Shown here piece by piece: positions 37,608 to 61,041 of a DNA stretch of 64,000 nt; position 1 is the first letter of the stretch, and every line of letters starts with the position of its first letter. The notes under the pieces are model-generated. The model was given only the letters and a program-made list of their open reading frames with translations. It did not search any database and was not told where the DNA came from. A program made the translations under genes and the position numbers. The DNA comes from an uncultured Dehalococcoidia bacterium (GTDB lineage Bacteria > Chloroflexota > Dehalococcoidia > Lucifugimonadales > G958296245). The stretch covers positions 1,974,197 through 2,038,196 of the forward strand of contig OY282458.1 in NCBI GenBank assembly GCA_958296245.1, in the 5' to 3' direction.

Positions 37608-38804
37608 CTAAGGGCGCGGGCGAAGCGTGTAGGGACGCTCGTTTGGCTTCAGCGAAATCATGGCGGCCTCCGTGTCGAAGACAAGCTCATCCAGCAATTC
37701 GCCGTCCTGGGAAACGGTGAATGGTCTGCCAACCCAATCCTTTGGCTGGTCGAACAGGATGGTCAACGGTTGGTTGAACCTGACGTTTTCCAGACCGTCG
37801 GACAGCGTAATCGTGATGCTTTCGGTTCCGGGGCTGCCCTCGACCGGTTCAACCTTAATCTCGGCATTCTCCCTTTCCCGGACATAGAGGGTTATGTCGT
37901 TCATAGAAGCCGTCCAGAAATCACGCGCCGCGATTGATTGAACGTCTTTGCGGAATTCGTCCCAAGCGTACCATCCCCAATGCCTCTGTCCGATGCTATG
38001 GTAGGTCAATATAACCCACGCGGTCCGCACCAATGCCTCATCCAGGATAGGCGTCAACTCGTCATTGTCGTTGATACAGGCGCGGCAATCCTGAAACTCG
38101 ATGCTTTGCATCTCCAACGCTTGCAAGCCGAACCAATTGTCGGGCGCCAGCCGGGACCCTGGGATATTGTAGAACCTCTTCGGGTCTAGGGTCTGTAGTC
38201 TGCCGCTCAAAAATCCGGAAGCCTCCAAAGCCCGTTGCGTCTCTTCTTCGTGTCCGGCGCTTCTCGGATAGGCGTAGGCGACGGGCTTCATTCCCCAATC
38301 TTCCATGGTGTCGTAGTTGGCCTGGAAAGATTGGAAGGCCTCTTCGTAAGACAACTCGTCGTGGTCTACGTGATCGTGGCCATGCCCAAAATAGCTGAAC
38401 CCATTGGGGACCAGCTCCGACATCAGATAGGCGATCCGCTCATCGTCAGGCCCGCTGAATATGCGATCACCGTTAAAGGAATTTCTGGTCACTATTTCAT
38501 AGCCCATTACGAGGCCCTGCTCCATCACGTAGCTATCTATGTCCGGTTCCCTTCCGCGGATGGGCCAGTCATCGTTGGTAATCGAGATTGCGGCGGTGTG
38601 GTTGTCAAACCACTTTGCGACTGAAGCGTTCAGGGGGCCCGGGGTAGGAGTTGGGACGTCCGGCGCCTGGGACCGGCATCCCGCCGCCAGTACCAAAACG
38701 CCGAGCAGCAGCAACGCCCCCGCCATCATTGCAACGCAAGACGGCAAGGCGCGCCACAGATTGTTCAGTGCGAAGCCTTGCAGGCCGTTCTCCTTACTGT
38801 TCAA
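37608..38804 (-). CDS. Polysaccharide deacetylase-like (NodB-type) lipoprotein
   Basis: A 398-aa protein read from the TTG at 38804. The shared leader (NSKENGLQGFALNNLWR) runs into a lipoprotein signal (AGALLLLGVLVLAAGC). The catalytic region resembles carbohydrate esterase 4: AAISITNDDWP (Asp-Asp motif), GHGHDHVDHDELSYEE (His metal site) and AYAYPRSAG. A later TYHSIGQRHWGW fits the C-terminal active-site His. It probably deacetylates an amino sugar in the surface glycan. ATG 38729 is an alternative start, but then no positive charge precedes the hydrophobic segment. It lacks the KEPC module although it has the leader, and its start overlaps the upstream stop by 11 nt. Confidence 0.75.
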   Translation of the reverse strand: MNSKENGLQGFALNNLWRALPSCVAMMAGALLLLGVLVLAAGCRSQAPDVPTPTPGPLNASVAKWFDNHTAAISITNDDWPIRGREPDIDSYVMEQGLVMGYEIVTRNSFNGDRIFSGPDDERIAYLMSELVPNGFSYFGHGHDHVDHDELSYEEAFQSFQANYDTMEDWGMKPVAYAYPRSAGHEEETQRALEASGFLSGRLQTLDPKRFYNIPGSRLAPDNWFGLQALEMQSIEFQDCRACINDNDELTPILDEALVRTAWVILTYHSIGQRHWGWYAWDEFRKDVQSIAARDFWTASMNDITLYVRERENAEIKVEPVEGSPGTESITITLSDGLENVRFNQPLTILFDQPKDWVGRPFTVSQDGELLDELVFDTEAAMISLKPNERPYTLRPRP

Positions 38805-41115
38805 GGCGGATCTCCCCCTCCCAGAGGCGGTTGTAGCCGCCGGCCGCGGGGACGTACTGGCCTGTCCTGATTTCGGAGACATTATATTCCGGGAGAGGAA
38901 TTTTCACCATACATTTGCCGTCGAGTATCTCGCCGCGCCAGTCAAATCTAAAGTCCAGGTTGTCGAAGCCGTATTGCCGGCGATGGTCGGGCAGGTCGTT
39001 CACGTCAACCGGGTATAGGTGAAGGAAGAATACCGCCTCCGTGTCGGCGCGGGCGCACGGCTCCTTGACGTAGATGAGGTGGTTTCCGATGAGATGCACG
39101 TCAAAGCTGGAGCGGATTGACGGCGGGCGGTCTCCGACCAGCCTTGCCAGATAATCGCTCGCTGCTATAGCTTCAACCCTGACTGGCGGGAGTGCATCGT
39201 GGGGCAGCACAACGGCGTCCACGCACAGCCCCGTCTCCGTTTGCGCCCAGGCGTTGGCGGCCAGTCCATCCGCTGCGCCAACCCAAGACCACGCTATCCA
39301 CTCGTTCGGCGCGCAATTCCTGACGAACGCCTGCGCCAGCCGGCCGTCCACGATCAGCCCGATGCCATCCGACTGATGGTCGAAGTGGGGTTCAATCCTC
39401 TCCCAAGTCCTGGCGACGGTATTTTCATCTGCCGGCAGATCGATGGGCCGTAGTTGGAGTCTTAGTGGTGAACCTTCAAAGCTCCTAGGGTCGGCAAAAT
39501 GAGTTATCCCGAATTCTCGATGGAGAGCATCATATCCGTCTCTAGCCAGCTTTCTCGCGTGGAGATAGTCATAGGAGTTGACTAGGCCATCCAAGTTCAC
39601 CACTGGAAAGCGCGAGAAGTACCCGATGCCGCCGGCTTCATACGACCCGACCACGCTGTCCTCGGGAAGCACGCGGTTCATAAGCTGCGTACCCCCATAA
39701 ACAGCTTCAGTCCATTCGGTCCATGAGTCGTCAGTTCTGGTTGAGACACTAATCGCTTCAACACGCTGAAATGGCTCGGTGAAATCGGCCTTGATAAACA
39801 GGAAGGCCGCGCCCGCAAGGACGATGCCCAAACTCAGGATGTTGGTCGCGTGCTGCGACTTCGGCCCGATGAACCGGCGAATGAAGTAAATGGCGACGTA
39901 ACATCGTACGGGAACAATCAGCGCCGTCATCAGGTACGCCGGGACAAAATACCAAGACCAAGGACCCAAGGAAGGGTGAATCGTGAGAACAGTCTGTGCG
40001 AATTTGGCCAGATGGCCGGCCGCCAAACCGAACATGCCCACCAGGAAGGCCAGCAGAAGCCAATCTTTCCGACTCCGGGAGCGGCGGGCGAACCACCAGA
40101 CCAGCAGCAAATAGGCGCAAACCTCCAGCGCAACCAGCAGCCCATCGTTTAAGACAGGAATCTGCAATATGTCCTGGAAGTTCTGCGCCAAGCTGTATCC
40201 ACCTTCCTGCTCCCACCTGAGCTGCGACCAGAAATTCTTGGTCGCGCCGCTCACCGGCGCGATGCCGCCGAACACGAGCCAGTTGTAGGCGAAATACACC
40301 AGGATGCCTGCGCCGGCGGCGAGAAACGGGACGACCGCCTTCACGGAGCGCGCGGAACGAGCCCACTCTCCGAGTGACGCGCTGGGCGCTCGTTCCTGCC
40401 GCGACCATTCCATAAGCAGCAACGCCGCCGTGGCGGCCAGCGATATGGCGATGTATTCCAGGCGCACCCAAGGCAGGGCGAAGGTGACCGCGGCCAACGG
40501 CCACTGCCACCGCGCCGGGCTTCGGGCAAAGAGGCAAGCGGTCAGAATGAACAGGCCCAACATGAACAGCGCCGCCGCCGCTTCCATTCCTTGAATCAAG
40601 GACCGGTTCTGGTAGAACATCGGCAGCGCGGCGAACATCAGATACCACGGCTGGCGCGCCAGCCGGGCGGCCGCGGCGACGAGGGCTACGCCGCCGGCGA
40701 TGAGCATGATCTCGAACGCCTTGATGCCGAACAGCGCGGCTTCCTTGTCGAATACCCAGTAGAACGGCGTAATCAGCAGCAGCCAGAGGGGGTGATATCC
40801 GTTGGTGCGCGTGATGCCGCCGTCGAAGGTCGAGAACTTCCCCTCAGTCAGGTTGCTGGCGATCTGGAAGTAGTAGAAGGCGTCATCGTGCATGTGGGAG
40901 ATAAGGTTGATGAGGTCGAAGCGGGCGAGCATGTACCAGGCGAACCCGGCGCCGTATGCCAGGACGCCAGCGACGAATAGGGCGAACAGCCCGTGGCGCA
41001 GCCTGGAGGAAGGAATTACCCCCCCCCCTCCAGTACTCATGTTCTGATAACGCGCCGCCAAGGCGCTCCACAGATTCAGCGCGAAGCCTCGCACGGCGTT
41101 CCCGTTACTGCTCAA
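38794..41115 (-). CDS. GT-C membrane glycosyltransferase (LFALFV type) with KEPC module, leader in frame
   Basis: A 773-aa protein and the reference member of four related genes (also 51616, 56127, 58479). It has a leader SSNGNAVRGFALNLWS, a G10 tract coding Gly, a first helix [22 protein letters not shown], an external loop HDDAFYYFQIASNL with [17 protein letters not shown], many helices, an external segment ([33 protein letters not shown]) and a C-terminal KEPC module. The DD pair in the first loop is the likely catalytic or metal site of GT-C enzymes. The TTG at 41115 overlaps the upstream stop by 11 nt. An ATG inside the leader (MSTGGGG) is a second possible start, just before the G tract. 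Confidence 0.82.
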   Translation of the reverse strand: MSSNGNAVRGFALNLWSALAARYQNMSTGGGGVIPSSRLRHGLFALFVAGVLAYGAGFAWYMLARFDLINLISHMHDDAFYYFQIASNLTEGKFSTFDGGITRTNGYHPLWLLLITPFYWVFDKEAALFGIKAFEIMLIAGGVALVAAAARLARQPWYLMFAALPMFYQNRSLIQGMEAAAALFMLGLFILTACLFARSPARWQWPLAAVTFALPWVRLEYIAISLAATAALLLMEWSRQERAPSASLGEWARSARSVKAVVPFLAAGAGILVYFAYNWLVFGGIAPVSGATKNFWSQLRWEQEGGYSLAQNFQDILQIPVLNDGLLVALEVCAYLLLVWWFARRSRSRKDWLLLAFLVGMFGLAAGHLAKFAQTVLTIHPSLGPWSWYFVPAYLMTALIVPVRCYVAIYFIRRFIGPKSQHATNILSLGIVLAGAAFLFIKADFTEPFQRVEAISVSTRTDDSWTEWTEAVYGGTQLMNRVLPEDSVVGSYEAGGIGYFSRFPVVNLDGLVNSYDYLHARKLARDGYDALHREFGITHFADPRSFEGSPLRLQLRPIDLPADENTVARTWERIEPHFDHQSDGIGLIVDGRLAQAFVRNCAPNEWIAWSWVGAADGLAANAWAQTETGLCVDAVVLPHDALPPVRVEAIAASDYLARLVGDRPPSIRSSFDVHLIGNHLIYVKEPCARADTEAVFFLHLYPVDVNDLPDHRRQYGFDNLDFRFDWRGEILDGKCMVKIPLPEYNVSEIRTGQYVPAAGGYNRLWEGEIRLEQ
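41019..41028 (-). repeat. Poly-G tract (10) in glycosyltransferase leader, in frame
   Basis: Ten G on the coding strand: ACT GGA then GGG GGG GGG GTA. At this length the leader start and the membrane protein share a frame. Confidence 0.85.
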
Positions 41116-43150
41116 GCCGGAACTCCCCCTCCCAGAGGTGATCGAAACCGCCGGCTAGGGGCACGAACTGGCCGGTGCTGATGCGGGCAATATCATACTC
41201 CGGGAGAGCAATCGCCGCCATACACCGCCCATCAAGTATCACGCCGCTCCCGTAGAAACTGAAATCCAGGTTGTCGAAGCCGTACCGGCGGCGATGATAG
41301 GGAAGGTCGTTCACGTCAACCGGATACACGGCGAGGAAGAACCACGCCTCCACGTCGGCGCGGGCGCACGGCTCCCTGACGTATACCAGCGTGTTATCGC
41401 TGAGATAGACGTCGAAGTCGGAGCGAATGACGGGTTCGCCGGACACCATTGACACCAGCTCCTCATAGGCGGCCTGCTGCGCGCCGGCGCTGTCAAATGC
41501 TTCGTTCACCCTGAATATGGCGCCATCGGCCAGCTCCGCCACCGGCTCCAACGGGAGCGGCGACTCCATCTGCCAGAGGCCGCAAACTATCCGGCGGCCT
41601 TCGCCCTGGCCGACCCATACGATGTGCTTTTCCGGTTCCCCATGCTCTCGAGATTTCTCGACGACCCGCTCGAACCAGACTTGGCAATCGTAGACGTCCT
41701 GCAAGTTCCGCCGCGGCACGGCAACCAAGGTCACCAGCGTTCCCGGAACACCCGCGTTCCATCGGATTACGTTGGGGGCGTTGCTGTAGTACCGGCCGGA
41801 AACCGGGTTCGCCCGCACATACTCCACGATCTCGGAATCCTCCCAGTACGCCGTATTGAGACTCCTGCCGATGTACCCCGATTCCAGCGCTTCGGCGGTC
41901 AATCGCAGATTATGCTGCGCCGAGGCGCCGATATGCCAGCCGCCGCCAATCAGCGCCAGAGCGACTAGCCCCCACCGAAACGCGGACATCCCGCCCGTCG
42001 CCCTGTGGCGCAGCAGCCCGTCCAGCCAGAACGCCCCAACGAACAGCAACGGAACATAGACCGGCGCGAGGAATCGGCTGTCTATGCCCTGCTCGGCCGT
42101 GAACGGCACCAACACGGTTAAAATGGCAAGGTACGCCAGAGCGAATATCCAGAAGACGTAAGACGCCCTTCCTGAACGGGGAGGGGTGAGGAGCAGCGCC
42201 GCCAGCAGCACAACCAGGCCGGCAATCAGCCATGGCGAGTGCAACTCCCAGCGGGGCTGGGGCAGCAGCGGGTTGGCCCACCCTTCGAACACCACGATGA
42301 TCTGCACCAGTCCATCGAACAGGGACTGCCCCGACGCTGAGGACCGGTCCCCGGTAAGTGTCCCGGAGACCAGGTAGTTGCGCGCCAGCGCCGCCGCGAG
42401 GGGGAGCGACGATATGGCGCCGAAGGCCAGGGCGTCCTGCAGCCGCTGGCGCACCGGGGCGTCCCGGCGCAAAAGGATCATAAGGACTGCGGAGAAGATC
42501 AGCGCAACCCCGATGTACCGCGTCACCGCGGACAGCGCGGCGAATACCGCGGAAAGCGCGAGGGCCCGCTTGCCGCTTCTCCGGTTCAAGAACGACTCCA
42601 AAGGCATCAAGGCAAGGACGGTGAACAGGATGAAGAGGGATTCACTCAGAAGGGTCGAAGCGAAATGAGCGAGGGGAACGGCTACCGTCACTGCCACTGC
42701 CGCGCCCAGCGCAATCGCCGGCGTCTGGAGACGCCGGCTCAGCCAGAGGCCCGACGCCAGGATGAGCAGACCGAAGGCGGCTGCGTTAAGTAACCGGCCC
42801 CCGTCCACCGGCTCGATGCCGAACAGGCTCAGGAACGCCATTGCTATGGAGAAGAAGGGCGCGTACAACACCATCGGCCTGCCGCCGGGGCTTAGCAGAC
42901 CATCCCCGGCGGCCAGACTCTCGGCTGCCGATATGTAGTTGAAGGCCCAGTCGATCGACGCGCCGTAGGTGGAAGTGCGGACCAGGACGTGCGCCGCGCC
43001 CAAGACCGCGACGAGGGCGATGAGCGCCGGAAATGCGGAGCGCCTGATGGAGAGGGAAATACCCGCCCCCGTACTCATGTTCTGATAACGCGCCGCCAAG
43101 GCGCTCCACAGATTCAGCGTGAAGCCTCGCACGTGCCTGCTGGGAAGCAA
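41105..43150 (-). CDS. GT-C membrane glycosyltransferase with KEPC module, related to the 23482/25127 pair
   Basis: A 681-aa protein with leader remnant RHVRGFTLNLWS, first external loop ASIDWAFNYISAAESLAAGDGL followed by MVLYAPFFSIA, about 10-12 helices and the core ending LEPVAELADGAIFRVNEAF. That ending corresponds to the C-terminus of the two module-less genes at 23482 and 25127; here the protein continues into a complete KEPC module (VYLSDNTLVYVREPC to WEGEFRLEQ). The start is a TTG at 43150, just after the stop of the 70-aa gene; ATG 43079 (MSTGAG) is the alternative. Its last codons supply the ribosome site for the next gene. Confidence 0.82.
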   Translation of the reverse strand: MLPSRHVRGFTLNLWSALAARYQNMSTGAGISLSIRRSAFPALIALVAVLGAAHVLVRTSTYGASIDWAFNYISAAESLAAGDGLLSPGGRPMVLYAPFFSIAMAFLSLFGIEPVDGGRLLNAAAFGLLILASGLWLSRRLQTPAIALGAAVAVTVAVPLAHFASTLLSESLFILFTVLALMPLESFLNRRSGKRALALSAVFAALSAVTRYIGVALIFSAVLMILLRRDAPVRQRLQDALAFGAISSLPLAAALARNYLVSGTLTGDRSSASGQSLFDGLVQIIVVFEGWANPLLPQPRWELHSPWLIAGLVVLLAALLLTPPRSGRASYVFWIFALAYLAILTVLVPFTAEQGIDSRFLAPVYVPLLFVGAFWLDGLLRHRATGGMSAFRWGLVALALIGGGWHIGASAQHNLRLTAEALESGYIGRSLNTAYWEDSEIVEYVRANPVSGRYYSNAPNVIRWNAGVPGTLVTLVAVPRRNLQDVYDCQVWFERVVEKSREHGEPEKHIVWVGQGEGRRIVCGLWQMESPLPLEPVAELADGAIFRVNEAFDSAGAQQAAYEELVSMVSGEPVIRSDFDVYLSDNTLVYVREPCARADVEAWFFLAVYPVDVNDLPYHRRRYGFDNLDFSFYGSGVILDGRCMAAIALPEYDIARISTGQFVPLAGGFDHLWEGEFRLEQ

Positions 43151-43155
43151 CGCAG

Positions 43156-43368
43156 CTAGAAGCCGGGATAACTCCTTTCGCGCTTCGTCTCACCAGTAGC
43201 GGGATCTGGCAAGCCGATGGTGGCCCGGTGTGTGCCCAGCGGCGCCAGCCTATATCGAGTTTTCAAATGCGGGGCTATCTCCTCGATATACTTCTGCAAA
43301 GCATCCAAGGAATCGCGATCCAAATGAGGGTTTTTACTTATGATTTCGTTAATATCAGGCTTATCCAT
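43156..43368 (-). CDS. Small hypothetical protein (70 aa)
   Basis: Starts MDKPDINEIISKNPHLDRD, predicted mostly helical, and ends with a polar tail (GETKRERSYPGF). ATG 43368 is preceded by CCAGGAGTCCAAA, a good ribosome site, so I prefer it to the longer reading from 43413. It lies 62 nt after the ClpP-fold proteinase gene, has similarly low GC, and probably forms a two-gene unit with it. No family recognised. Confidence 0.6.
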   Translation of the reverse strand: MDKPDINEIISKNPHLDRDSLDALQKYIEEIAPHLKTRYRLAPLGTHRATIGLPDPATGETKRERSYPGF

Positions 43369-43430
43369 TTTGGACTCCTGGTTGAAGTCAGACGAATCAG
43401 CTATGACTCTCAATGTCTAATGGCGATGGC

Positions 43431-44306: not shown

Positions 44307-44337
44307 CGTTCACTCCTGACTGATCATACATCTGTTC

Positions 44338-44367
44338 AGTATATCGGCTGAGTGAACGGCCAATCAA
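44338..44367 (-). promoter_or_regulatory. Sigma-70-like promoter for the ClpP-fold proteinase gene
   Basis: On the minus strand TTGATT (44362-44367) and TATACT (44338-44343) are 18 bp apart, about 32 nt upstream of the GTG start. This is one of the better promoter matches in the window. Confidence 0.55.
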
Positions 44368-44444
44368 GTCAGGCCCGCCCCAACGTTCACTGAACCCCAA
44401 CGTGCGCCTTCAGATATTGCCCTTCATCAAGTGCGCCTGGGCCG

Positions 44445-44592
44445 CTACTCAGCAAGCCGAAACTCCCCCTCCCAGAGGTGATCGAAACCGCCGGCCAGGG
44501 GCACGAACTGGCCGGCGCTGATGCGGGCAATATCATACTCCGGGAGAGCAATCGCCGCCATACATCGCCCATCGAGTATCACGCCGCGCTCG
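44445..44592 (-). pseudogene. Remnant of a KEPC module (last ~47 residues only)
   Basis: In frame and intact to its TAG, this fragment reads [36 protein letters not shown] and DHLWEGEFRLAE. It is nearly identical in DNA to the end of the 41105-43150 gene but has no glycosyltransferase attached; the upstream side joins the 3' end of the NCS2 permease gene. The ~300-bp gap between the permease and the proteinase gene holds this remnant plus the proteinase promoter. It marks a deletion or insertion breakpoint in the array. Confidence 0.85.
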
Positions 44593-44613
44593 CGGCGGTC
44601 TCGCGTGTGGGAA

Positions 44614-46341: not shown

Positions 46342-46370
46342 GATCTATCACTCATGGTCCTCGGCGCGGG

Positions 46371-46459: not shown

Positions 46460-46529
46460 CATGCCGGGACCTTCAGGCTGCCAACCCGCAGGGGCTCGCG
46501 CGCGCCGCCGCGCACTGGCGCCCTGCCAT

Positions 46530-47378: not shown

Positions 47379-47443
47379 TTAACTCACGTCGCGATAGGAA
47401 AATACCCCTCCCTCTATGCAAATGTTCTGATAATGCGCCGGGT

Positions 47444-49465: not shown

Positions 49466-51626
49466 GGCGTATCTCCTCCTCCCAGAAGTGGCGGAAACCG
49501 CCTTCCACTGGCACGTACTGGCCGGTGCTGATGCGGGCAATAGCATACTCAGGGAGATCCACCGCCGCCATGCATTTGCCGTCAAGTATCACGCCGCGCT
49601 CGTAGAAATTGAAGTCCAGGTTGTCGAAGCCGTGCTGCCGGCGGTGGTCGGGCAGGTCGTTCACGTCAACCGGGTACAGGGCCAGGAAGAACCACGCCTC
49701 CGTGTCGGCGCGGGCGCACGGCTCCTTGACGTAGGTCAGCGTGTTTTCGCTGAGATATACGTCGAAGGTGGAGCGGATCGCCGGCTCGCTGTCTCTGATC
49801 AGTCTTGCCATATAATCGCCCACCGGCTCCGTTCCACCGGCTATCCGCAAGTCGTGTCCGGCGAAGCTCGCCACGACCCAGTCATGGTCGTCGGAGTCGA
49901 AGGGCATCCACAGATCGGGTCCGACCTTCACGGCGTACTGACCTCGGTCGAGGGCTTCAGCTTCGCTGGAGGCCGCAGGATGCGCTGTAAAGTTGACGCC
50001 GCGCTCCATCAGGTATCCGGGCGGCGGCTGGCGATCGTGGGCGATTGCGCGCTGGTGGTTGGGTGTTGTGACAGGATTGCGCGCCACCGTCGCATCGGTC
50101 AAGCCGAAGATGTCGATGACTTTCAGGTCAGGAAGGTAATAGAACCGTATGCCGAGCTTTGCGCCTGCCATCAGCGCGTCATCAGGAATCACTCCCCGCT
50201 CCATATTCTCGTAGGGCTGCCATCGGCGTAGCTGGCGGTTGGCGAACTCGCGGTGTTCCGCGAATCGTGAAGCGACATCCTGCTCAATAGACTGACGGCG
50301 CAGGTCGTTGGAGATAGCGGCCAGCGCCGACATCCCCGGCGCGGCCAGCAGCCAGCGGGCGTTGCGCTCGTCGAGCTCTATGTGAAGTCTCCAGATTCGT
50401 TTGTCAATCCTGGCGCCCTCGATCAACAGTTCTCCCTGTATGGCGCCGCAGTAGAAGATGACGGGGATGAACAGGATGAGCGCGCAAGCCCTCGCTCCCG
50501 GCAGCCGGAGTCGGTGGGAGTGGGGTATGCGCCGCCAGTCGAAGGCGGCGATCCGCGAGCCGATGCAGACGGTCCCCACAGCGGCCGGCAGCGCCAGCAG
50601 CGGCCAGTAGAAGTCCAGCGGGCGATATTCAAAGTGGTCGCCGCCAATCCGCATCACGTATGCCATGTGGACAGCGATTAGCAGCAGGACCAGAGCATAG
50701 ATCCCGTCGCGGCTCTCCCGCCACCGATGCCGCAGAGCAACCCACGCCAGGGGAATCAGCAGGTACAGCCCCGTCTCCAGCGCCGCCGACCACAGGTAGC
50801 GAAAGCCCGACTCGTACCACGGGCGAACGTGCTTGGCGTAGTAGGTGTTGGGCAGCCACTCGCCGTAGTAGGCGAAGCGGAACAGGAAGTGGGCCGCCAC
50901 TACGATGACGAAGGGCGCCGCCAGGTACGCCAATTCGCGCCAGTCCACCCGCAGCCCCTTGGCGTCGGCCATCCGCTGCGCCGCGAACCAGCCGAAGCAG
51001 CACACCGCAATCAGCGGCCCTTCCGGTCGGGTCAGGGCAGCCCCGATCAGGCTCGCTGACGCCGCCAGCAGGCCCGCTCGCCCATCTCGGTATAGGCTCA
51101 GGCAGACGACGGCCACTACGATGAAGAAGGTGAACTGCCGCGTTTCCAGCCCGCCGCCCGAGGTCCACACCGCGAAGGTCGCGCTGCTGCACACCAACCC
51201 CAAGGCCATCCAGCCGACCAGTCCCCGGTTTCGCAGCGAGGGCAGGCGCGCTATCCACCACAGCATCGCGCCGACGGTCCCGGCGGTGAAGGCCACCGAC
51301 AGCCACGGCGCCGCGTCCTCCGGGGCCGCGCCCAGCGCCCGCCAGATGGCGGCCAGCTCCAGCACCCACAGGAAGTTGGAGTAGCCCTCCACCCGCTCGC
51401 CGGGGTTGAAGACCAGGCCGTGGCCCTCCAGCAGGTTGCGGACGTAGCGGAAGCTGATGAAGGCGTCGTCGGTCAGGAACCACGACACCGAGGCCAGCCA
51501 GGCCAACAGCGCCAGCCAGGGCAGGCAGGCCAGTATGAGACTGAGGGATGTGCCCTTTAGCGGCCCTGTCAGGGCGCGCCGCATATTCAGCGCGAAGCCC
51601 CGCAGGCCGTTACCGTTACTGTTCAA
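49455..51626 (-). CDS. GT-C membrane glycosyltransferase (AftB/ZomB-like loop) with KEPC module
   Basis: A 723-aa protein. After leader [19 protein letters not shown] comes a helix and the signature [21 protein letters not shown] followed by [14 protein letters not shown], known from mycobacterial arabinofuranosyltransferase AftB-like proteins and their bacterial relatives. Further helices, an external region ([28 protein letters not shown]) and the KEPC module follow. It is closely similar to the 53991 gene. The TTG at 51626 overlaps the upstream stop by 11 nt. The leader has no poly-G tract. The module ends EEEIRLEQ. Confidence 0.82.
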
Positions 51627-53886
51627 GGCGTATCTCCCCCTCCCAGAGGTGGTTGTAGCCGCCGGGCACGGGCACGTACTGGCCGGTGCTGACACGGGCA
51701 ATATCATACTCAGGGAGAGGGATTTTCACTAGGCATTTGCCTTCTGATATCGTGCCGCGCTCGTAGAAATTGAAGTCCAGGTTGTCGAAGCCGTGCCGCT
51801 TGCGATGGTCGGGGAGGTCGTTCACGTCAACAGGGTGCAGGTGGAGGAAGAACCACGCCTCCACGTCGGCGCGGGCGCACGGCTCCCTGACGTAGGTCAG
51901 CGTGTTTTCGCTGAGATATACGTCCCAGTCGGAGCGGATTGCCGGCGGGCTCTCTCCGACCAGTCTTGCCAAGTAATCGCCGGCCTGCATTGTTTCAACC
52001 CTAAAAGGCGGGAGCGCATTGTGGGGCAGCACAACGGCGTCCACGCACAGCCCCGTCCCCGTTTGCGTCCAGGCTCTGACAGCCGGTTCATCCGCCGCGC
52101 CAGTCCATGACCACACTGCCAGCTTGTCCGGCGCGCAATCTCTGACGAACGCCTGCGCCATCCGGCCGTCCACAATCACCCCTATGCCATCCGACCGGTG
52201 GTCGAAGTGCGGCTCCATCCGTTCCCAGAACCAGTCGGAACGATTGGTCCCGCCCGATGACGTCTCCGGCGGCTCGGCGCTCAGGAGCGTGAATTGGCGT
52301 CTGTAGTGGGACGGCGAGCCTTCGAACAGTATTGCGCCCCCGCTCGGGCGCGCCAAGCGTTGGAGAACCTGGTCTCCCTTTCGGGCCACGTTGGCGAAGT
52401 GGGTAATTCCGTAGCGCTGGTAGAACGCGGTGTCGGTTCCTTCCTTTCGGGCGCGCAGGTAGTCGTAGGAGTTGACCAGACCGTCCAGGTTCACCACCGG
52501 AAAGCGCGAGAAGTACCCGATGACTCCGGCATCCCACGACCCGACCACGCTGTCCTCGGGCAACACGCGGTCCGTAACCTGCACACCCATATGAGAAGTA
52601 ACCTCCCATTCGCGGCCGGTCCACTCGCTGAGACGGTCAACATATCGGAACGGCCCGGCGAAGTCCGCCTTCGTAAGCAGGAAAACCGCGCCAACAACGA
52701 CGATGCCCACGCTCACAATGTTGGCTGCCCGGGGCGACCTCGGCCCGATGAAACGGCGGATGAAGTGGATGGCGACATAGCACCTTACGGGAGTAGTGAG
52801 CGCCGCCAGCATGTACGCCGGGACGAAGTACCAGCTATCACTCCCCCAGTAGGGATCCACGGTGAGAGCGGTCTGAGCGAACTTGGCGAGGTGGCCGACC
52901 GCCAAGCCGAACACGCACACCAGGAAGGCCAGCAGCAGCCAGTCGTCTCGGCTCCGAGAGCGGCGGGCGGACCACCAGACCAGAACGACGTAGGCGCAGA
53001 CCTCCAGCGCGGCCAGCAGCTCGTAGTCGAAGACATGAATCTGCAAGACATCCCGGAAGTTCTGAACGAAGCTGTACCCGCCTTCCTCCTCCCATAGCCA
53101 CTGCGACCACATCTGCTTGGTCGCGCCACTCACCGGCGTCACGCCCCCGAACACCAGCCCGTTGTATGCGAAGTACACCAGGATGCCGCCCACCGCGCCC
53201 AGCAGCGGAACCACGGCGTCCAGCGCAGATAGGGTGCCAAGCCTTGCCCCCTCTCCCTCGACGGGTGAGGGTGATTCCCGCCTCGACCACTCGATGAGAC
53301 CGAGCGCGGCGGTGACCGCCAACGATATGGCGATGTACTCCAGGCGCACCCAAGGCAGGGCAAAGGCGGCGGCGGCCAGAGGCCACCTCCAACGCCCACG
53401 GTCCCGCGCGTAGAGCATCACGGCCAAGAAGAACAGCCCCAGCATGAACAGCGCGGACGCCGCTTCCAAACCATGAAATAAGCCGTGGTACCGGTAGAGC
53501 AGCGGCAGCAGGGCGAACAGCAGAATCCAGGGCAGGCGCGCCAGCCGGGCGGCCACGGCGACCAGCGCCGCCCCGCCTGCGATGAGCATGACCTCGAACG
53601 CCTTGATGCCGAACAGCGCCGCTTCCTTGTCGAACACCCAGTAGAAGGGCGTGATCAGCAGCAGCCAGATGGGATGGTAGCCGTTCGTCCGGGTGATGCC
53701 GCCGTCGAAGGTGGAGAGGTTCCCCGAGGCGAGGTTATAAGCTATCTGGAAGTAATAGAAGGAGTCGTCGCCGTTGACGTCGCGGATGAGGTTGACAAAG
53801 TCGAAGCGGGCCAGCATGTACCAGGCGAACCCGGCGCCGTAGGCCAAGACGCCGGCGACGAATAGGGCGAACAGCCCGTTGCGCAA
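51616..53886 (-). CDS. GT-C membrane glycosyltransferase (LFALFV type) with KEPC module, leader out of frame
   Basis: At least 756 aa from the TTG at 53886 ([16 protein letters not shown]). The leader TTG at 54001 would add about 38 residues as in the 38794 gene, but an 11-G tract leaves it one base out of frame. The TTG at 53886 has no purine-rich ribosome site nearby (AATTCCTTCCTCCCGG precedes it), so expression from the leader may be off in this state. Loop [31 protein letters not shown] and the external [16 protein letters not shown] match the type. The module ends WEGEIRLEQ. Confidence 0.8.
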
Positions 53887-53903
53887 CCGGGAGGAAGGAA
53901 TTA

Positions 53904-53914
53904 CCCCCCCCCCC
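53904..53914 (-). repeat. Poly-G tract (11) in glycosyltransferase leader, out of frame
   Basis: Eleven G between ACA and TAATTCC on the coding strand. Ten G would connect leader and protein as in the 38794 gene. Confidence 0.85.
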
Positions 53915-53990
53915 TGTACTTATGTTCTGAAAGCGCACTGTCAGGGCGCACCACAGATTGTTCAGCGTGAAGCCCTGCAGGCCGCGGCGG

Positions 53991-54024
53991 TTACTGCTCA
54001 AGGCGTATCTCCCCCTCCCAGAGG
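53991..54024 (-). promoter_or_regulatory. Representative cassette junction: ribosome site and TTG start inside the 3' end of a gene
   Basis: The last codons of the upstream module, reading W-E-G-E-I-R-L-E-Q-stop, are TGGGAGGGGGAGATACGCCT then TGAGCAGTAA. They contain GGGAGGGGGAG and, 7 nt later, a TTG followed by AGC AGT AAC that opens the conserved leader of the next gene. The same arrangement occurs with TTG at 19530, 21511, 38804, 41115, 49465, 51626, 54001, 58489 and 60870. Confidence 0.6.
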
Positions 54025-56111
54025 TGGTTGAAACCGCCTTCCACGGGGACGTACTGGCCGGTGCTGACGCGGGCAATAGCATACTCAGGGAGAGCAATCG
54101 CCGCCATGCATTTACCGTCGAATATCACGCCGCGCCCGTCGAAGCTAAAGTCGAGGTTGTCGAAGCCGTACTGCCTGCGATGGCCGGGCAGGTCGTTCAG
54201 GTCAACAGGGTCTAGGTGCAGAAAGAACCTCGCCTCTATATCGGCGGGGGCGCACGGCTCCTTGACGTAGGTCAGCGTGTTGTCGCTGAGATATACGTCA
54301 AAGGTGGAGCGAATCACCGGCTCGCTGTCTCTGATCAGTCTTGCCATATAATCGCCCACCGGCTCCGTTCCACCGGCTATCCGCAAGTCGTGTGCGGCGA
54401 AACTTGCCACGACCCAGTCATGGTCGAAGGAGTCGAAGGGCATCCACAGGCCGGGTCCGACCTTCACGGCGTACTGACCTCGGCGGAGGGCCTGGGCTTC
54501 GCTGGAGGCCGCAGCATGCACTGTAAAGTTGACGCCGCGCTCCATCAGGTATCCGGGCGGCGGCTGGCGATCGTGGGCGATTCCGCGCTGGTGGTTGGGT
54601 TTTGTGACAGGATTGCGCGCCACCGCCGCATCGGTCAAGCCGAAGATGTCGATGACTTTCAGATCCGGAAGATAATAGAACCTGCCGAGACCTCCGCCTG
54701 CTGTCAGCGCGTCATCGGGAATAACTCCCCGCTCCATATTCTCGTAGGGCTGCCACCAGCGCATCTGCTCGTTGGCGAACTCGCGGTGTTCCGCGAATGG
54801 TGAAGCGACATCCTGCTCAACAGACTGACGGCGCAGGTCGTTGGAGATGGCGGTCAACACAGGCATCCCCGGCGCTGCCAGCAGCCAGCCTGCATTGCCC
54901 TCGTCGATCTCTATGTGAAGTCTCAGGATGCGCTCGTCAACCTTGGCGCCCTCGAAGAATAGCGCTGCCTGTATGGCGCCGCAGTAGAAGATGACGGGGA
55001 TGAACAGGATGAGCGCGCAGGTCCTTGCTCCCGGCAGCCGGAGTCGGTGGGAGTGGGGTATGCGCCGCCAATCGAAGGCGGCGATCCGCGAGCCGATGCA
55101 GACGATCCCCTCGGCTGCCGGCAGCGCCAGCAGCGGCCAGTAGAAGTCCAGCGGGCGATATTCAAAGTGGTCGCCGCCAATCCGCATCACGTATGCCATG
55201 TGGACAGCGATTAGCAGCAGGACCAGAGCATAGATCCCGTCGCGGGTCTCTCGCCACCGATGCCGCAGCGCAACCCACGCCAGGGGAATCAGCAGGTACA
55301 GCCCCGTCTCCAGCGCCGCCGACCACAGGTAGCGAAAGCCCGACTCGTACCACGGGCGGACGTGCTTGGCGTAGTAGGTGTTGGGCAGCCACTCGCCGTA
55401 GTAGGCGAAGCGGAACAGGAAGTGGGCCGCCACTACGATGACGAAGGGCGCCGCCAAGTACGCCAGTCCGCGCCAGTCCACCCGCATCCCCTTGGCGTCG
55501 GCCATCCGCTGCGCCGCGAACCAGCCGAAGCAGCACACCGCAATCAGCGGCCCTTCCGGTCGGGTCAGGGCCGCACCGATCAGGCTGAACGACGCCGCCA
55601 GCAGGCCCGCTCGCCCATCTCGGTATAGGCTCAGGCAGACGACGGCCACTACGATGAAGAAGGTGAACTGCCGCGTTTCCAGCCCGCCGCCCGAGGTCCA
55701 CACGGCGAAAGTCGCGCTGCTGCACACCAACCCCAAGGCCATCCAGCCGACCAATCCTCTGTTTCGCAGCGAGGGCAGGCGTGCTATCCACCACAGCATC
55801 GCGCCGACGGTCCCGGCGGTGAAGGCCACCGACAGCCACGGCGCCGCGTCCTCCGGGGCAACGCCCAGCGCCCGCCAGATGGCGGCCAGCTCCAGCACCC
55901 ACAGGAAGTTGGAGTAGCCTTCCACCCGCTCGCCGGGGTTGAAGACCAGGCCGTGGCCCTCCAGCAGGTTGCGGACGTAGCGGAAGCTGATGAAGGCGTC
56001 GTCGGTCAGGAACCACGACACCGAGGCCAGCCAACCCAACAGCGCCAGCCAGGGCAGGCAGACCAGTATGAGAGCAATGGCCGGTCTTGCGTCTCGACCG
56101 ATCCTTGTCAT
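53991..56111 (-). CDS. GT-C membrane glycosyltransferase (AftB/ZomB-like loop) with KEPC module
   Basis: A 706-aa close paralogue of the 49455 gene with the same [21 protein letters not shown] signature; differences cluster in the external region and module. It starts at ATG 56111 after GAGAGGCACGG, 15 nt beyond the upstream stop, so it is the one large gene of the right-hand array without the shared leader. Its short unique N-terminus is TRIGRDARPAIALILVCLPW. With the 56127 gene it forms a two-gene unit that resembles the 51616-49455 unit. Confidence 0.85.
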   Translation of the reverse strand: MTRIGRDARPAIALILVCLPWLALLGWLASVSWFLTDDAFISFRYVRNLLEGHGLVFNPGERVEGYSNFLWVLELAAIWRALGVAPEDAAPWLSVAFTAGTVGAMLWWIARLPSLRNRGLVGWMALGLVCSSATFAVWTSGGGLETRQFTFFIVVAVVCLSLYRDGRAGLLAASFSLIGAALTRPEGPLIAVCCFGWFAAQRMADAKGMRVDWRGLAYLAAPFVIVVAAHFLFRFAYYGEWLPNTYYAKHVRPWYESGFRYLWSAALETGLYLLIPLAWVALRHRWRETRDGIYALVLLLIAVHMAYVMRIGGDHFEYRPLDFYWPLLALPAAEGIVCIGSRIAAFDWRRIPHSHRLRLPGARTCALILFIPVIFYCGAIQAALFFEGAKVDERILRLHIEIDEGNAGWLLAAPGMPVLTAISNDLRRQSVEQDVASPFAEHREFANEQMRWWQPYENMERGVIPDDALTAGGGLGRFYYLPDLKVIDIFGLTDAAVARNPVTKPNHQRGIAHDRQPPPGYLMERGVNFTVHAAASSEAQALRRGQYAVKVGPGLWMPFDSFDHDWVVASFAAHDLRIAGGTEPVGDYMARLIRDSEPVIRSTFDVYLSDNTLTYVKEPCAPADIEARFFLHLDPVDLNDLPGHRRQYGFDNLDFSFDGRGVIFDGKCMAAIALPEYAIARVSTGQYVPVEGGFNHLWEGEIRLEQ

Positions 56112-56126
56112 CCGTGCCTCTCACCC

Positions 56127-58442
56127 TTACTCAGCAAGCCGGAACTCCCCCTCCCAGAAGTGGCGGAAACCGCCTTCCACTGGCACGTACTGGCCGGTGC
56201 TGACACGGGCAATAGCATACTCAGGGAGATCCGCCGCCGCCATACATCTCCCGTCAAATATCAAGCCGCGCTGATCGAAGTGGAAGTCCAGGTTGTCGAA
56301 GCCGTGCCGCTTGCGATAGTCGGGCAGGTCGTTCACGTCAACAGGGTGCAGGTGGAGGAAGAACCACGCCTCCACGTCGGCGCGGGCGCACGGCTCCCTG
56401 ACGTAGGTCAGCGTGTTGTCGCTGAGATATACGTCGAAGGTGGAGCGGATCGCCGGCGGGCTCTCTCCGACCAGTCTTGCCAAGTAATCGCCGGCCTGCA
56501 TTGTTTCAACCCTAAAAGGCGGGAGCGCATTGTGGGGCAGCACAACGGCGTCCACACACAGCCCCGTCTTCGTTTGCGTCCAGGCTCTGACAGCCGGTTC
56601 ATCCGCCGCGCCAGTCCATGACCACACTGCCAGCTTGTCCGGCGCGCAATCTCTGGCGAACGCCTGCGCCATCCGTCCGTCCACTATCAGCCCTATGCCA
56701 TCCGACCGGTGGTCGAAGTGCGGCTCCATCCGCTGCCAGAACCAGTCGGAACGACTGGTCCCGCCCGATGACGTCTCCGGCGGCTCGGCGAGCCAGATCC
56801 TGAATTGGAGCTCACCATGGCGAGAGTGGTGATACGGCGGCCCTTCGAACAGCATCGCGTCCACGTCCTGAATGGCGGGCCAGACGTCGGCGAAGTGGGT
56901 AACCCCGTAACGCCGGTGGAACGTGGCGGTGTCGCTTCCTTCCCTTTGAGCGTAGTCGTAGGAGTTGACCAGACCGTCTAGGTTCACCACCGGAAAGCGC
57001 GAGAAGTACCCGATGACGCCAGCGGACCACGACCCTACCACGCTGCCATCGGGCAGCGCATGGTCCATAACCTGCACACCCATATGAGAGGTAACCTCCC
57101 ATTCGTGGCTGGTTGACTCGCTTGCCCGGTCAGCATACCGGAATGGCCCCATGAAGTCCGCATTCGCAAGCAGGAAGTACGCTCCGACAACCACGATGCC
57201 CACGCTCACAATGTTGGCTGTCCATGGCCACCTCGATCCGATGAAACGGCGGATGAAGTGGATAGCGATATAGCACCTTACGGGAATGATGAGCGCCATC
57301 ATCAGGTACGCCGGGACGAAATACCAGACATAGCCCCCATAGACAGGGTGTATGGTGAGGACGGTCTGCGCGAACTTGGCGAGGTGGCCAACCGCCAAGC
57401 CGAACACGCAGACCAGAAAGGCAAACAGCAGCCAGTCCTTCCGGTTCTTGGAACGGCGGGCGAGCCACCAGACCAGAACGACGTAGGCGCAGACCTCCAG
57501 CGCGGCCAGCAGCTCGTAGTCGAAGACCGGAATCTGCAAGACGTCCCGGAAGTTCTGAACGAAGCTGTACCCGCCTTCCTCTTCCCATAGCCACTGCGAC
57601 CCCATCTGCTTGAGCGCCCCGCTCACCGGCGTGACGCCCCCGAACACCAGCCCGTTGTATGCGAAGTACACCAGGATGCCGCCGACCGCGCCCAGCAGTG
57701 GCGCAACGGCGTCGAGCGCGATCATGGAACGGACCCGCTCTCGCCAGGACGCGCCGACCTCTCGCGGCGGCCGTGACCACTCGATGAGACCAAGCGCGGC
57801 AGTGACCGCCAGCGATATGGCGATGTACTCCAGGCGCACCCAGGGCAGGGCAAAGGCGACGGCGGCAAGCGGCCACTTCCACCGCGCCGGGTCCCGCGCG
57901 TAGAGCATCACGGCCAAGAAGAACAGCCCCAGCATGAACAGCGCGGACGCCGCTTCCAGTCCAAGAAATAAGCCGTGGTACTGGTAGAGCAGCGGCAGCA
58001 GGGCGAACAGCAGAATCCAGGGCAGGCGCGCCAGCCGGGCGGCCACGACGACCAGCGCCGCCCCGCCTGCGATGAGCATGATCTCGAACGCCTTGATGCC
58101 GAACAAGGCCGCTTCCTTGTCGAACACCCAGTAGAACGGCGTGATGAGCAGCAGCCAGAGGGGATGGTAGCCGTTCGTCCGGGTGATGCCGCCGTCGAAG
58201 GTGGAGAGGTTCCCCGAGGCCAGGTTATAAGCTATCTGGAAGTAATAGAAGGAGTCGTCGCCGTTGACGTCGCGGATGAGGTTGATAAGGTCGAAGCGGG
58301 CCAGCATGTACCAGGCGAACCCGGCGCCGTAGGCCAAGACGCCGGCGACGAATAGGGCGAACAGCCCGTTGCGCAACCGGGAGGAAGGAATTACCCCCTC
58401 CCTGTACTTATGTTCTGATAGCGCGCGGTCAGGGCGCGCCAC
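56127..58442 (-). CDS. GT-C membrane glycosyltransferase (LFALFV type) with KEPC module
   Basis: 771 aa read from the GTG at 58442 ([25 protein letters not shown]), which reads the leader DNA in a different frame from its relatives. From the leader TTG at 58489 translation would stop after 33 codons at GGG TAA, because the G tract is short and interrupted (GGGAGGGGG). Loop [30 protein letters not shown] and external [16 protein letters not shown] define the type. The KEPC module ends WEGEFRLAE. The GTG lacks a clear ribosome site. Confidence 0.78.
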   Translation of the reverse strand: MARPDRALSEHKYREGVIPSSRLRNGLFALFVAGVLAYGAGFAWYMLARFDLINLIRDVNGDDSFYYFQIAYNLASGNLSTFDGGITRTNGYHPLWLLLITPFYWVFDKEAALFGIKAFEIMLIAGGAALVVVAARLARLPWILLFALLPLLYQYHGLFLGLEAASALFMLGLFFLAVMLYARDPARWKWPLAAVAFALPWVRLEYIAISLAVTAALGLIEWSRPPREVGASWRERVRSMIALDAVAPLLGAVGGILVYFAYNGLVFGGVTPVSGALKQMGSQWLWEEEGGYSFVQNFRDVLQIPVFDYELLAALEVCAYVVLVWWLARRSKNRKDWLLFAFLVCVFGLAVGHLAKFAQTVLTIHPVYGGYVWYFVPAYLMMALIIPVRCYIAIHFIRRFIGSRWPWTANIVSVGIVVVGAYFLLANADFMGPFRYADRASESTSHEWEVTSHMGVQVMDHALPDGSVVGSWSAGVIGYFSRFPVVNLDGLVNSYDYAQREGSDTATFHRRYGVTHFADVWPAIQDVDAMLFEGPPYHHSRHGELQFRIWLAEPPETSSGGTSRSDWFWQRMEPHFDHRSDGIGLIVDGRMAQAFARDCAPDKLAVWSWTGAADEPAVRAWTQTKTGLCVDAVVLPHNALPPFRVETMQAGDYLARLVGESPPAIRSTFDVYLSDNTLTYVREPCARADVEAWFFLHLHPVDVNDLPDYRKRHGFDNLDFHFDQRGLIFDGRCMAAADLPEYAIARVSTGQYVPVEGGFRHFWEGEFRLAE

Positions 58443-58478
58443 AGATCGTTCAGCGTGAAGCCTCGCAGGCCGCGGCGG

Positions 58479-60761
58479 TTACTGCTCAAGCCGGAACTCT
58501 CCCTCCCAGAAGTGGTTGTAGCCGCCTTCCACAGGCACGTACTGGCCGGTAAAGATGCGGGCAATATCATACTCAGGGAGAGTCGCCGCCGCCATACATC
58601 TCCCATCGAATATCACGCCGCGCCCGTCGAAACCGAAGTCCAAGTTATCGAAGCCGTGCCGCTTGCGATAGTCGGGAAGGTCGTTCACGTCAACCGGGTA
58701 CAGGGCGAGGAAGAACAACGCCCCCGTGTCGGCGGGGGCGCAAGGCTCCTTCACGTAGATGAGCCTGTTCTCGATGAGATATACGTCGAACTCGGAGCGG
58801 ATTGCCGGCTCGCGGTCGCCGACCAGATCTGCCAAGTAATCGCCGGCCGTCATCGCATCCGCCCGCACCGGAGGGGAGGCGTCGCGGGGCAGCACGAGCG
58901 CGTCCACGCACAGCCCCGTCTTCGTTTGCGTCCAGGCTTTGGGGAACGGTTCAGCCGCGCCAGTCCATGACCACACTGCCAGCTCGTCCGGCGCGCAATC
59001 TCTGGCGAACGCCTGCGCCATCCGTCCGTCCACGACCACTCCGATGTCGCCCGATTGATAGTCGAAGTGCGGCTCCATCCGTTCCCAGAACCAGACGTCG
59101 GCGTCTCTCATTGGGGAGTAGGACCAGAGTTTGAACCGTAGTCTGCTGACATCAGGGTCGGGATGTGGTGCGCCCTCGAACATGACGTTGTCCAAGGCGA
59201 ATCCACGCTTTACATTCAAATCGCCTCCAGCGACGTTCGCGAACAAGGTAATCCCGTAATGCTGATAGAACGCGTACACGGCCTCGGTTATTTCCTTGCG
59301 GGCCTGCCAGTAAGGGTAGCGATTGCGGGCACGATAGTAATCCCAGGAATTGACCAGGCCGTCTAGGTTCACTACCGGAAAACGCGAGAAGTATCCGATG
59401 CTGCCGGCGTCCCACGACCCGACCACGCTGTCCTCGGGCAGCACACGGTCCATAACTCGAACGCCCATATGAGAATTAACCTCAAATTCGCGGCTGGTTG
59501 ACTCGCTTGCCGAGTCGGCATACCGGAACGGTCCTGTGAAGTCCGCCTTTGTAAGCAGAAAGGCTGCTCCGACAACGACGATGCCCACGCTCACAATGTT
59601 GGCTGCCAGGGGCGACCTCGGTCCGATGAAACGGCGGATGAAATGGATGGCTACGTAGCACCTTACGGGAATAAGAAGCGTCATCAGCAGATACGCCGGG
59701 ACGAAGTACCAAGCCTGTTTCCCCCAGGAGGGATGCACGGTGAGAACGGTCTGAGCGAACTTGGCGAGGTGGCCGGCCGCCAGGCCGAACACGCACACGA
59801 GGAAGGCCAACAGCAGCCAGTCTGTGCGGTCCCTGGAACGGCGGACGAACCACCAGACCAGAACGGCGTAAGCGCATATCTCCAGCGCGGCCAGCAGCTC
59901 GTAGTCGAACGCGGGGATCTGCAAGACGTCCCGGAAGTTCTGAACGAAGCTGTATCCGCCTTCGTTATCCCACCGGGCTTGCGACCACATCTGCTTGGTT
60001 GCGCCGCTCACCGGCATCACGCCTCCGAACACCAGCCCGTTGTATGCGAAGTACACCAGGATGCCTGCGCCGGCGGCGAGAAACGGGACGGCCGCCTTGA
60101 CGTAGAGCGCGGAACGAACCCGCTCTCCGAGCGGCGCGCCGGGCGCCCGCTCCCGCCTCGACCACTCGATGAGACCGAGCGCGGCAGTGACCGCCAGCGA
60201 TATGGCGATGTACTCCAGGCGCACCCAAGGCAGGGCAAAGGCGACCGCGGCCAGCGGCCACTTCCACCGCGCCGGGTCCCGCGCGTAGAGCATCACGGCC
60301 AAGAAGAACAGCCCCAGCATGAACAGCGCGGCGGCCGCTTCCAGTCCCAGGAATAGGTTGCGCTGCTGGTACAGCATCGGCAGCGCGGCGAACAGCAGAA
60401 TCCAGGGCAGCCGCGCCAGCCGGGCGGCCACGACGACCAGGGCAACCCCGCCGGCGATGAGCATGATCTCGAACGCCTTGATGCCGAACAAGGCCGCTTC
60501 CTTGTCGAACACCCAGTAGAAGGGCGTAATCAGCAGCAGCCAGAGGGGATGGTAACCGTTCGTCCGGGTGATGCCGCCGTCGAAGGTAGAGAAGTTCCCC
60601 GAGGCCAGGTTATATGCAATCTGGAAGTAATAGAAGGAGTCGTCGCGGTTTACGTCCCGGATGAGGTTGACAAAGTCGAAGCGGGCCAGCATGTACCAAG
60701 CAAACCCGGCGCCGTATGCCAGGACGCCGGCGACGAACAGAGCGAACAGCCCGTTGCGCAA
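58479..60761 (-). CDS. GT-C membrane glycosyltransferase (LFALFV type) with KEPC module, leader out of frame
   Basis: At least 760 aa from the TTG at 60761. The leader TTG at 60870 is one base out of frame because of a 9-G tract. Loop [36 protein letters not shown] and [18 protein letters not shown] define the type. The external region differs from its paralogues (WQARKEITEAVYAFYQHYGI). The module ends WEGEFRLEQ and supplies the next junction. It is the most upstream intact glycosyltransferase of the right-hand array. Confidence 0.8.
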   Translation of the reverse strand: MRNGLFALFVAGVLAYGAGFAWYMLARFDFVNLIRDVNRDDSFYYFQIAYNLASGNFSTFDGGITRTNGYHPLWLLLITPFYWVFDKEAALFGIKAFEIMLIAGGVALVVVAARLARLPWILLFAALPMLYQQRNLFLGLEAAAALFMLGLFFLAVMLYARDPARWKWPLAAVAFALPWVRLEYIAISLAVTAALGLIEWSRRERAPGAPLGERVRSALYVKAAVPFLAAGAGILVYFAYNGLVFGGVMPVSGATKQMWSQARWDNEGGYSFVQNFRDVLQIPAFDYELLAALEICAYAVLVWWFVRRSRDRTDWLLLAFLVCVFGLAAGHLAKFAQTVLTVHPSWGKQAWYFVPAYLLMTLLIPVRCYVAIHFIRRFIGPRSPLAANIVSVGIVVVGAAFLLTKADFTGPFRYADSASESTSREFEVNSHMGVRVMDRVLPEDSVVGSWDAGSIGYFSRFPVVNLDGLVNSWDYYRARNRYPYWQARKEITEAVYAFYQHYGITLFANVAGGDLNVKRGFALDNVMFEGAPHPDPDVSRLRFKLWSYSPMRDADVWFWERMEPHFDYQSGDIGVVVDGRMAQAFARDCAPDELAVWSWTGAAEPFPKAWTQTKTGLCVDALVLPRDASPPVRADAMTAGDYLADLVGDREPAIRSEFDVYLIENRLIYVKEPCAPADTGALFFLALYPVDVNDLPDYRKRHGFDNLDFGFDGRGVIFDGRCMAAATLPEYDIARIFTGQYVPVEGGYNHFWEGEFRLEQ

Positions 60762-60778
60762 CCGGGAGGAAGGAATTA

Positions 60779-60787
60779 CCCCCCCCC
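60779..60787 (-). repeat. Poly-G tract (9) in glycosyltransferase leader, out of frame
   Basis: Nine G following AC on the coding strand. Eight or eleven G would connect the leader TTG at 60870 with the protein. Confidence 0.85.
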
Positions 60788-60859
60788 GTACTTATGTTCT
60801 GATAGCGCGCGGTCAGGGCGCGCCAAAGATTCAGCGCGAATCCCCGCAGGCCGCGGCGG

Positions 60860-61041
60860 TTACTGTTCAAGCCGTATCTCTCCCTCCCAGAAGTGGTTGT
60901 AGCCGCCTTCCACAGGCACGTACTGGCCGGTGGTGAAGTGGGTAAATCTCATACTCAGGGAGAGCCGCCGCCAGGCATTCGCCGTTGAATATCACGCCGC
61001 GCCCGCGGCGAGTGCGATGAGCGCCGGAAATGCGGAGCGTC
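60860..61041 (-). pseudogene. Collapsed glycosyltransferase gene: leader-proximal scrap joined to KEPC module remnant
   Basis: The 3' part reads as the module end (ARGVIFNGEC) but is frameshifted near 60930-60950, where GTGGTGAAGTGGGTAAATC replaces the usual GTGCTGATGCGGGCAATATC. The 5' part (61012-61039) matches the DNA for RSAFPALIAL at the start of the 41105-43150 gene. So a gene of that type lost nearly everything between. It still supplies GAGAGATACGGCTTGAACAG as the junction for the downstream gene. Confidence 0.75.

Follow-up and report, generated by a model that had tools for sequence, protein, structure and literature searches.

A portable C-terminal module on glycosyltransferases and other extracytoplasmic proteins of bacteria from several phyla

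Why should enzymes with different catalytic parts, encoded side by side in one bacterial genome, end in the same small domain? The question is raised by a stretch of 64,000 nucleotides from an uncultured Dehalococcoidia bacterium (positions 1,974,197-2,038,196 of a single-contig genome of 2.685 Mb), referred to below as the window, in which an array of glycosyltransferase (GT) genes carries repeated copies of a module of about 120 amino acids with two conserved cysteines. The reading favoured here, to which we give roughly even confidence, is that the module is a disulfide-stabilised extracytoplasmic β-sandwich, which serves as a common C-terminal recognition, or 'address', domain on surface-glycan enzymes.

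A profile search of the window gives 15 intact copies of the module and two 3' remnants. An earlier note, made from the letters of the window, had listed the same copies with their motifs and coordinates, and all of these were recovered by motif and profile searches. The profile E-values of the intact copies are 4e-58 or lower, and the repeat is therefore not a product of chance. The alignment of the intact copies over about 120 residues has 31 invariant columns, including both cysteines, and a mean column identity of 70%. The same search finds 31 matches genome-wide, those beyond the window lying in small groups near 252-256 kb, 560 kb, 1.60 Mb, 2.04 Mb and 2.66 Mb. The statement that nearly every GT of the array bears the module is correct, as only two (23482-25146 and 25127-26782) are without it. 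The copies in the window, found by profile and, where stated, by other means as well, are:

6142..6501, plus strand, module copy 1 of the tandem four in the PMT_2 gene at 4471 (also alignment)
6535..6894, plus strand, copy 2 of the tandem four, same gene (also alignment)
6919..7269, plus strand, copy 3 of the tandem four, same gene (also alignment)
7303..7662, plus strand, copy 4 of the tandem four, same gene (also alignment)
17434..17790, minus strand, module at the end of a PMT-type GT, gene ending 17431 (also motif)
19526..19879, minus strand, module of the PMT-type GT 19520-21592
21507..21863, minus strand, module of the PMT-type GT 21501-23501 (PMT match for the gene)
38797..39159, minus strand, module of the GT 38794-41115, unnamed GT-C type A
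41108..41461, minus strand, module of the LA_3751-like GT 41105-43150
44448..44591, minus strand, module remnant, module positions 73-120
47456..47800, minus strand, module of the PMT-type GT 47444-49585
49458..49820, minus strand, module of the AftB-like GT 49455-51707
51619..51981, minus strand, module of the GT-C type A 51616-53886
53994..54356, minus strand, module of the AftB-like GT 53991-56111, a paralogue of the 49455 gene
56130..56492, minus strand, module of the GT-C type A 56127-58442
58482..58844, minus strand, module of the GT-C type A 58479-60761, the copy used for structure prediction
60863..60943, minus strand, module remnant, module positions 94-120, with a frame break upstream near 60962

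The catalytic cores in the window fall into PMT/PMT_2-like, LA_3751-like and AftB-like classes and one unnamed class that looks like GT-C. The assignment of this last class, type A, to GT-C is based on sequence pattern only, and the full-length GT model (predicted local distance difference test, pLDDT, 50) is too poor for use. The earlier note spoke of at least four unrelated GT-C types; there are indeed several classes, but single linkage at E<1e-8 puts most of the cores together, so that 'unrelated' says more than the comparison supports. One PMT-type GT is broken at 18516-18631 by a stop or frameshift into two open reading frames (ORFs; 18631-19530, the 5' part, and 17431-18516), and its paralogues are intact.

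None of the 15 copies scores above the curated cut-off of any Pfam or NCBIfam family, and the sole match in a sequence search of the PDB is a designed protein at chance level. Searches of plasmids, phages and viral contigs gave no relatives of the module, and Foldseek against viral proteins nothing significant. The module, described as unrecognised from the start, is thus new to the family libraries searched, and its fold is probably of a known general type.

The two cysteines are the most stable feature of the module. Among 210 full modules in the fetched loci both are present in 208, exactly two cysteines occur in 206, and both are lost in one. Residues C36, F45, P51, C84, P91, G101, Q102 and W114 do not vary among 24 diverse members with identities as low as 24%. 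In distant versions from Acidobacteriota (L143, L144) most of the loop as far as F71 is missing, and both cysteines are kept. Because the two are kept jointly, even in the distant versions, a disulfide between C36 and C84 is likely; the earlier note had proposed such a bond, which is supported by this conservation and is itself inferred rather than demonstrated. The ratio of nonsynonymous to synonymous substitution rates (dN/dS) of the module has a median of 0.45 over 182 close pairs and exceeds 1 in 2.7% of the pairs; selection therefore acts on the module protein. Several modules on core class 6 GTs (L029, L032, L033, L064) align only from about position 33-40; that of L029 is without both cysteines, and that of L064 apparently has an insertion in its N-terminal half.

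The AlphaFold2 model, computed from a 69-member alignment, confidently predicts a β-sandwich (mean pLDDT 94.1, predicted template modelling score 0.86), in which a short N-terminal helix is followed mainly by β strands. When the model was compared with known structures by Foldseek and VIA-align, fibronectin type III (FnIII) and immunoglobulin (Ig)-like domains ranked first. The best E-value is 5e-3, and the best Z is 7.4, with a root-mean-square deviation of 3.3 over 94 residues; this is less than the tool counts as confident, and the assignment to this fold is a non-decisive lead. The highest-ranking structures (Z 6-7.4) are monobodies of the FnIII type and FnIII domains of cytokine receptors. 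Like FnIII domains (PF00041 and relatives), the module is extracytoplasmic, occurs in tandem and, in one protein described below, stands beside true fn3 domains. Unlike them, it has an N-terminal helix, a conserved cysteine pair and a long GFDNLDF loop, and a Z below 8 may mean merely a common arrangement. The fn3 profile (PF00041) matches none of the 15 modules; the genuine fn3 domains of that protein score 104 bits.

Across loci there are 202 distinct module ORFs with 1-4 copies each. In agreement with the C-terminal position first noted, 188 of 193 proteins end within 30 residues of the last module, and in the window 0-3 residues follow it. The proteins that carry it are not limited to one GT-C family, as they include several GT-C classes and at least four kinds of non-GT protein, and no known GT-C family emerged from the profile search of which the module would be a standard C-terminal part. 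The carriers found elsewhere include a lipoprotein with a glucose/sorbosone dehydrogenase (GSDH) β-propeller and cytochrome c, an arylsulfotransferase (PF05935), a GDSL/SGNH hydrolase, a GT-module-polysaccharide deacetylase fusion and a multi-pass membrane protein without a Pfam match. In locus L126 (2028-10391) an open frame of 2788 amino acids, whose product is probably secreted, has fn3, cadherin, leucine-rich and GLUG repeats, and here the module is internal. The original description of the module as an appendage of GTs alone is therefore too narrow, since it also ends lipoprotein dehydrogenases, sulfotransferases and an SGNH hydrolase and lies within this adhesin-like giant.

All carriers besides the GT-C proteins look exported or membrane-bound, and most act on sugars. 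From its lipobox, haem and adhesin contexts the module can be placed outside the cytoplasm, as the earlier note had suggested; the carriers that show this are the lipoproteins, the cytochrome c proteins, the sulfotransferases and the adhesin-like protein. Crude hydropathy left the topology of the GT-C proteins unsettled. By the same crude measure a soluble stretch of about 130-230 residues lies between the last membrane helix and the module, which corrects the earlier placing of the module directly behind that helix. In the type A GTs a cysteine-containing domain of about 80 residues just before the module was considered as a degenerate module, which a profile comparison does not support (probability 2.8%). 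The module resembles the C-terminal periplasmic domains of GT-C enzymes such as AftB, ArnT and PglB in lying on the outer side after the membrane part; it differs from them in being an extra domain past the soluble stretch and in being portable to non-GT proteins.

The distribution of the module follows a set of records. A scan of 84,980 species genomes with strict peptide patterns, which would miss distant versions, gave 69 module loci, all on accessions OY282352-OY282565 or CATQHB. Their labels are Dehalococcoidia, Caldilineaceae, Bryobacterales, Vicinamibacterales, Latescibacteria, Entotheonella, Binatia, Nitrospirales, Pseudomonadales and other Gammaproteobacteria, and 17 of the scan genomes have 17-65 copies each. 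The genomes that bear the module thus number about 20, come from about 8 phyla and lie essentially in one accession block; elsewhere the module is nearly absent. Among relatives (the counts include the query genome itself) it occurs in 5 of 59 genomes of the same order, 7 of 400 Chloroflexota, 5 of 247 Acidobacteriota (three of them with weak single copies only), 2 of 64 Latescibacterota, 1 of 5 from the Entotheonella phylum, 1 of 398 Pseudomonadota, 1 of 274 from the gammaproteobacterial class and 1 of 295 Nitrospirota. Distant single copies end GT-C-like proteins in a few Acidobacteriota and also in other Chloroflexota, which suggests that the module may have begun as the C-terminal domain of a GT-C enzyme. 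The same mix of taxa has been reported for high-microbial-abundance sponges by the Sanger Aquatic Symbiosis project (PMC12586988, PMC12648040). No paper found names these accessions; judging by the mix of taxa, the module-bearing bacteria are probably fellow symbionts of a marine sponge.

The genes that carry the module have moved between these phyla. Cores from different phyla are 77-90% identical in amino acids, and over 1.2-2.3 kb their DNA identity is 81-93% with dS of 0.11-0.44, for example 93% between Binatota and Latescibacterota, 91% between Latescibacterota and Acidobacteriota, and 87% between the 38794 gene of the window and Latescibacterota. As the records are chromosome-scale, contamination of bins is an unlikely cause, and DNA identity at this level shows that the transfer was recent. 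The earlier note held that the module is inherited separately from the catalytic core, which is true in part. Modules on different core classes within one genome have a mean identity of 65%, compared with 60% on the same class across phyla, and some on different cores in one genome are 85-93% identical. On the module tree the genome label changes 60 times against 118 when shuffled, and the core class 40 times against 94 (85 when shuffled within genomes). A module therefore follows its core to some extent and is to some extent swapped; there are many swaps, and the linkage is not lost.

The unit repeated in the DNA exceeds the module. It runs through the stop codon into a conserved leader of about 100 nt of the next gene, as here:

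41019..41115, minus strand, leader peptide M(S/N/G)SNGNGLQGFALNLWRALTARYQN..., with a TTG start overlapping the module stop and a G10 tract at its end

The leader element also follows the modules at 19520, 21501, 38794, 49455, 51616, 53991 and 58479 and the remnant near 60870, with the consensus M(S/N/G)SNGNGLQGFALNxLWRALTARYQN. It is shared by several phyla. Of 52 copies, 44 have an open frame, and two start with ATG instead of TTG. Its dN/dS is 0.46-0.60 in frame against 0.92-0.94 in the other frames, a modest coding signal. At dispersed sites of OY282442 (L050, L065, L071, L080, L089, L100) the leader shows identical erosion, a frameshift and an in-frame stop, as if it had been homogenised or copied; being eroded alike at many loci of one genome, it is dispensable.

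The leaders in the window end in AGAACATNNGTAC followed by a run of 9-11 G (41019-41028, 53904-53914, 60779-60787 and 23429-23437, minus strand), and in other genomes and phyla the leader often ends in a run of 8-22. Among the type A GTs, leader and core share one frame across the run at 38794 and differ in frame at 51616 and 58479. These runs possibly reflect phase variation, or HiFi homopolymer error. Coding poly-C tracts (C9-C21) occupy one homologous site in the PMT-type GT cores of several genomes (L044:2186, L046:3312, L047:4965 and 7730, L057:4365, L066:4986, L053:3014); they are in frame in some loci (L057, L053) and out of frame in others, and look like contingency loci. At the 3' ends of modules (e.g. 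window 58482-58520) the codons TGGGAGGGGGAG of WEGE-(I/F)-R stand about 8 nt before the leader TTG. They could be the Shine-Dalgarno site of the leader, in which case the motif would be conserved in part for translational coupling.

The genes around the array bear on what its enzymes may build. They include:

34100..35419, plus strand, Wzx-type flippase of the same surface polysaccharide locus
37608..38882, minus strand, polysaccharide deacetylase-like lipoprotein, with the leader and no module
61958..63706, minus strand, Wzy_C-like O-antigen ligase/polymerase, no module

The region also codes for cytoplasmic GTs and a possible sulfotransferase; together with the flippase and the Wzy-like ligase this is the gene content expected of a surface polysaccharide locus. 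The Nitrospirales locus L079 encodes a fusion in which a deacetylase follows the module (GT-module-deacetylase).

On the reading favoured here, the module would do its work as part of enzymes that assemble or modify surface glycans on the outer side of the cytoplasmic membrane. The conserved ordered loop at residues 51-71 (P51...DLP..R...GFDNLDF), with neighbouring aromatics, might recognise a single partner that these communities have in common. This would most likely be a surface glycan or a lipid-linked glycan acceptor; a scaffold protein is less likely. Each enzyme would in this way be brought to the same substrate. The leader-core-module genes would then form a pool shared across the phyla of one, possibly sponge, community, and the conserved cassette ends would supply the homology for exchange of cores and modules. 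The place of the module in the cell, its spread and its exchange are shown by the results above; binding of a common partner is inferred from the list of carriers, the loop and the type of fold. Carbohydrate-binding modules are comparable, being small β-sandwiches on carbohydrate-active enzymes, and BhCBM56 (5t7a) is a weak fold match (Z 6.2); unlike them the module has an invariant cysteine pair and is also on redox proteins, and no Pfam profile of such modules matches the 15 copies. Several points weigh against the proposal: the ligand or partner is hypothetical, a glycan role is unproven for some carriers (the cytochrome c/GSDH proteins and the multi-pass membrane proteins of core class 2), the similarity to known folds is weak (E>=5e-3 in Foldseek, Z<=7.4), and the constraint indicated by a dN/dS of 0.45 is no more than moderate. 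A wider form of the proposal may be entertained tentatively: about 8 phyla in one animal holobiont would exchange the leader-core-module pool as a system of surface variation, with the module as the address for a shared surface glycan or host-derived ligand and the poly-G/poly-C tracts switching genes on and off.

The modules might instead bind each other or a scaffold and so cluster the enzymes. The tandem copies and the presence of the module on many enzymes of one pathway fit such docking, and FnIII and Ig-like folds often mediate protein contacts; we nevertheless consider it rather doubtful, as a separate scaffold or cohesin-like partner was not seen, although no systematic search for one was made. 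It is unlikely that the module is a sorting or anchoring tag, recognised a single time by machinery for export, retention or attachment to the surface rather than by a substrate. Its strictly C-terminal position, its many different cargoes and its tens of copies per genome are what such a tag would give, and the C-terminal domain (CTD) of the type IX secretion system (T9SS; TIGR04183) and PEP-CTERM are likewise single C-terminal domains common to many extracytoplasmic proteins of a genome. The T9SS CTD is also a C-terminal Ig-like sandwich. Most carriers of the module, however, are polytopic GT-C membrane enzymes that need no such secretion, and the tandem copies (2-4) and the internal copy in the 2788-residue protein do not suit a processed tag. 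None of the 15 modules matches the T9SS CTD models of NCBIfam at E<=1 or a PEP-CTERM model, and the proteins end with the module, in place of the short motif, terminal membrane helix and basic tail of PEP-CTERM. Chloroflexota, moreover, are generally held to be single-membraned.

The cassette ends could also be conserved as a handle for recombination, promoting the swapping of genes with the module as a tolerated passenger. In favour of this, the DNA repeat takes in the leader of the following gene as well as the module and its stop codon, an eroded leader recurs at many sites of one genome, and near-identical modules stand on different cores. Purifying selection on the protein (dN/dS as given above), the cysteines retained at 24% identity and the single copies in distant genomes make this quite improbable. 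Least probable of all, and held with very little confidence, is the view that the module is simply a lineage-specific periplasmic domain at the C-terminus of GT-C enzymes and was duplicated along with them. The distant versions on GT-C-like proteins of Acidobacteriota and other Chloroflexota make such a domain a likely origin; as a full account this view is refuted by the GSDH/cytochrome c, sulfotransferase, SGNH and adhesin-like carriers, and the sporadic many-copy distribution over phyla also speaks against it.

The module, absent from family libraries and present in tens of copies per genome, tracks a community and not a lineage. A portable C-terminal module in such numbers, recently shared across phyla, is a new variation on the known portable C-terminal domains, and it can be used as a search profile for gene pools of this kind. 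Inter-phylum transfers with up to 93% DNA identity make shared surface genes of sponge holobionts a testable idea. If the module is an address for surface-glycan enzymes, it would offer a handle on how symbionts of different phyla reach compatible surfaces in one host.

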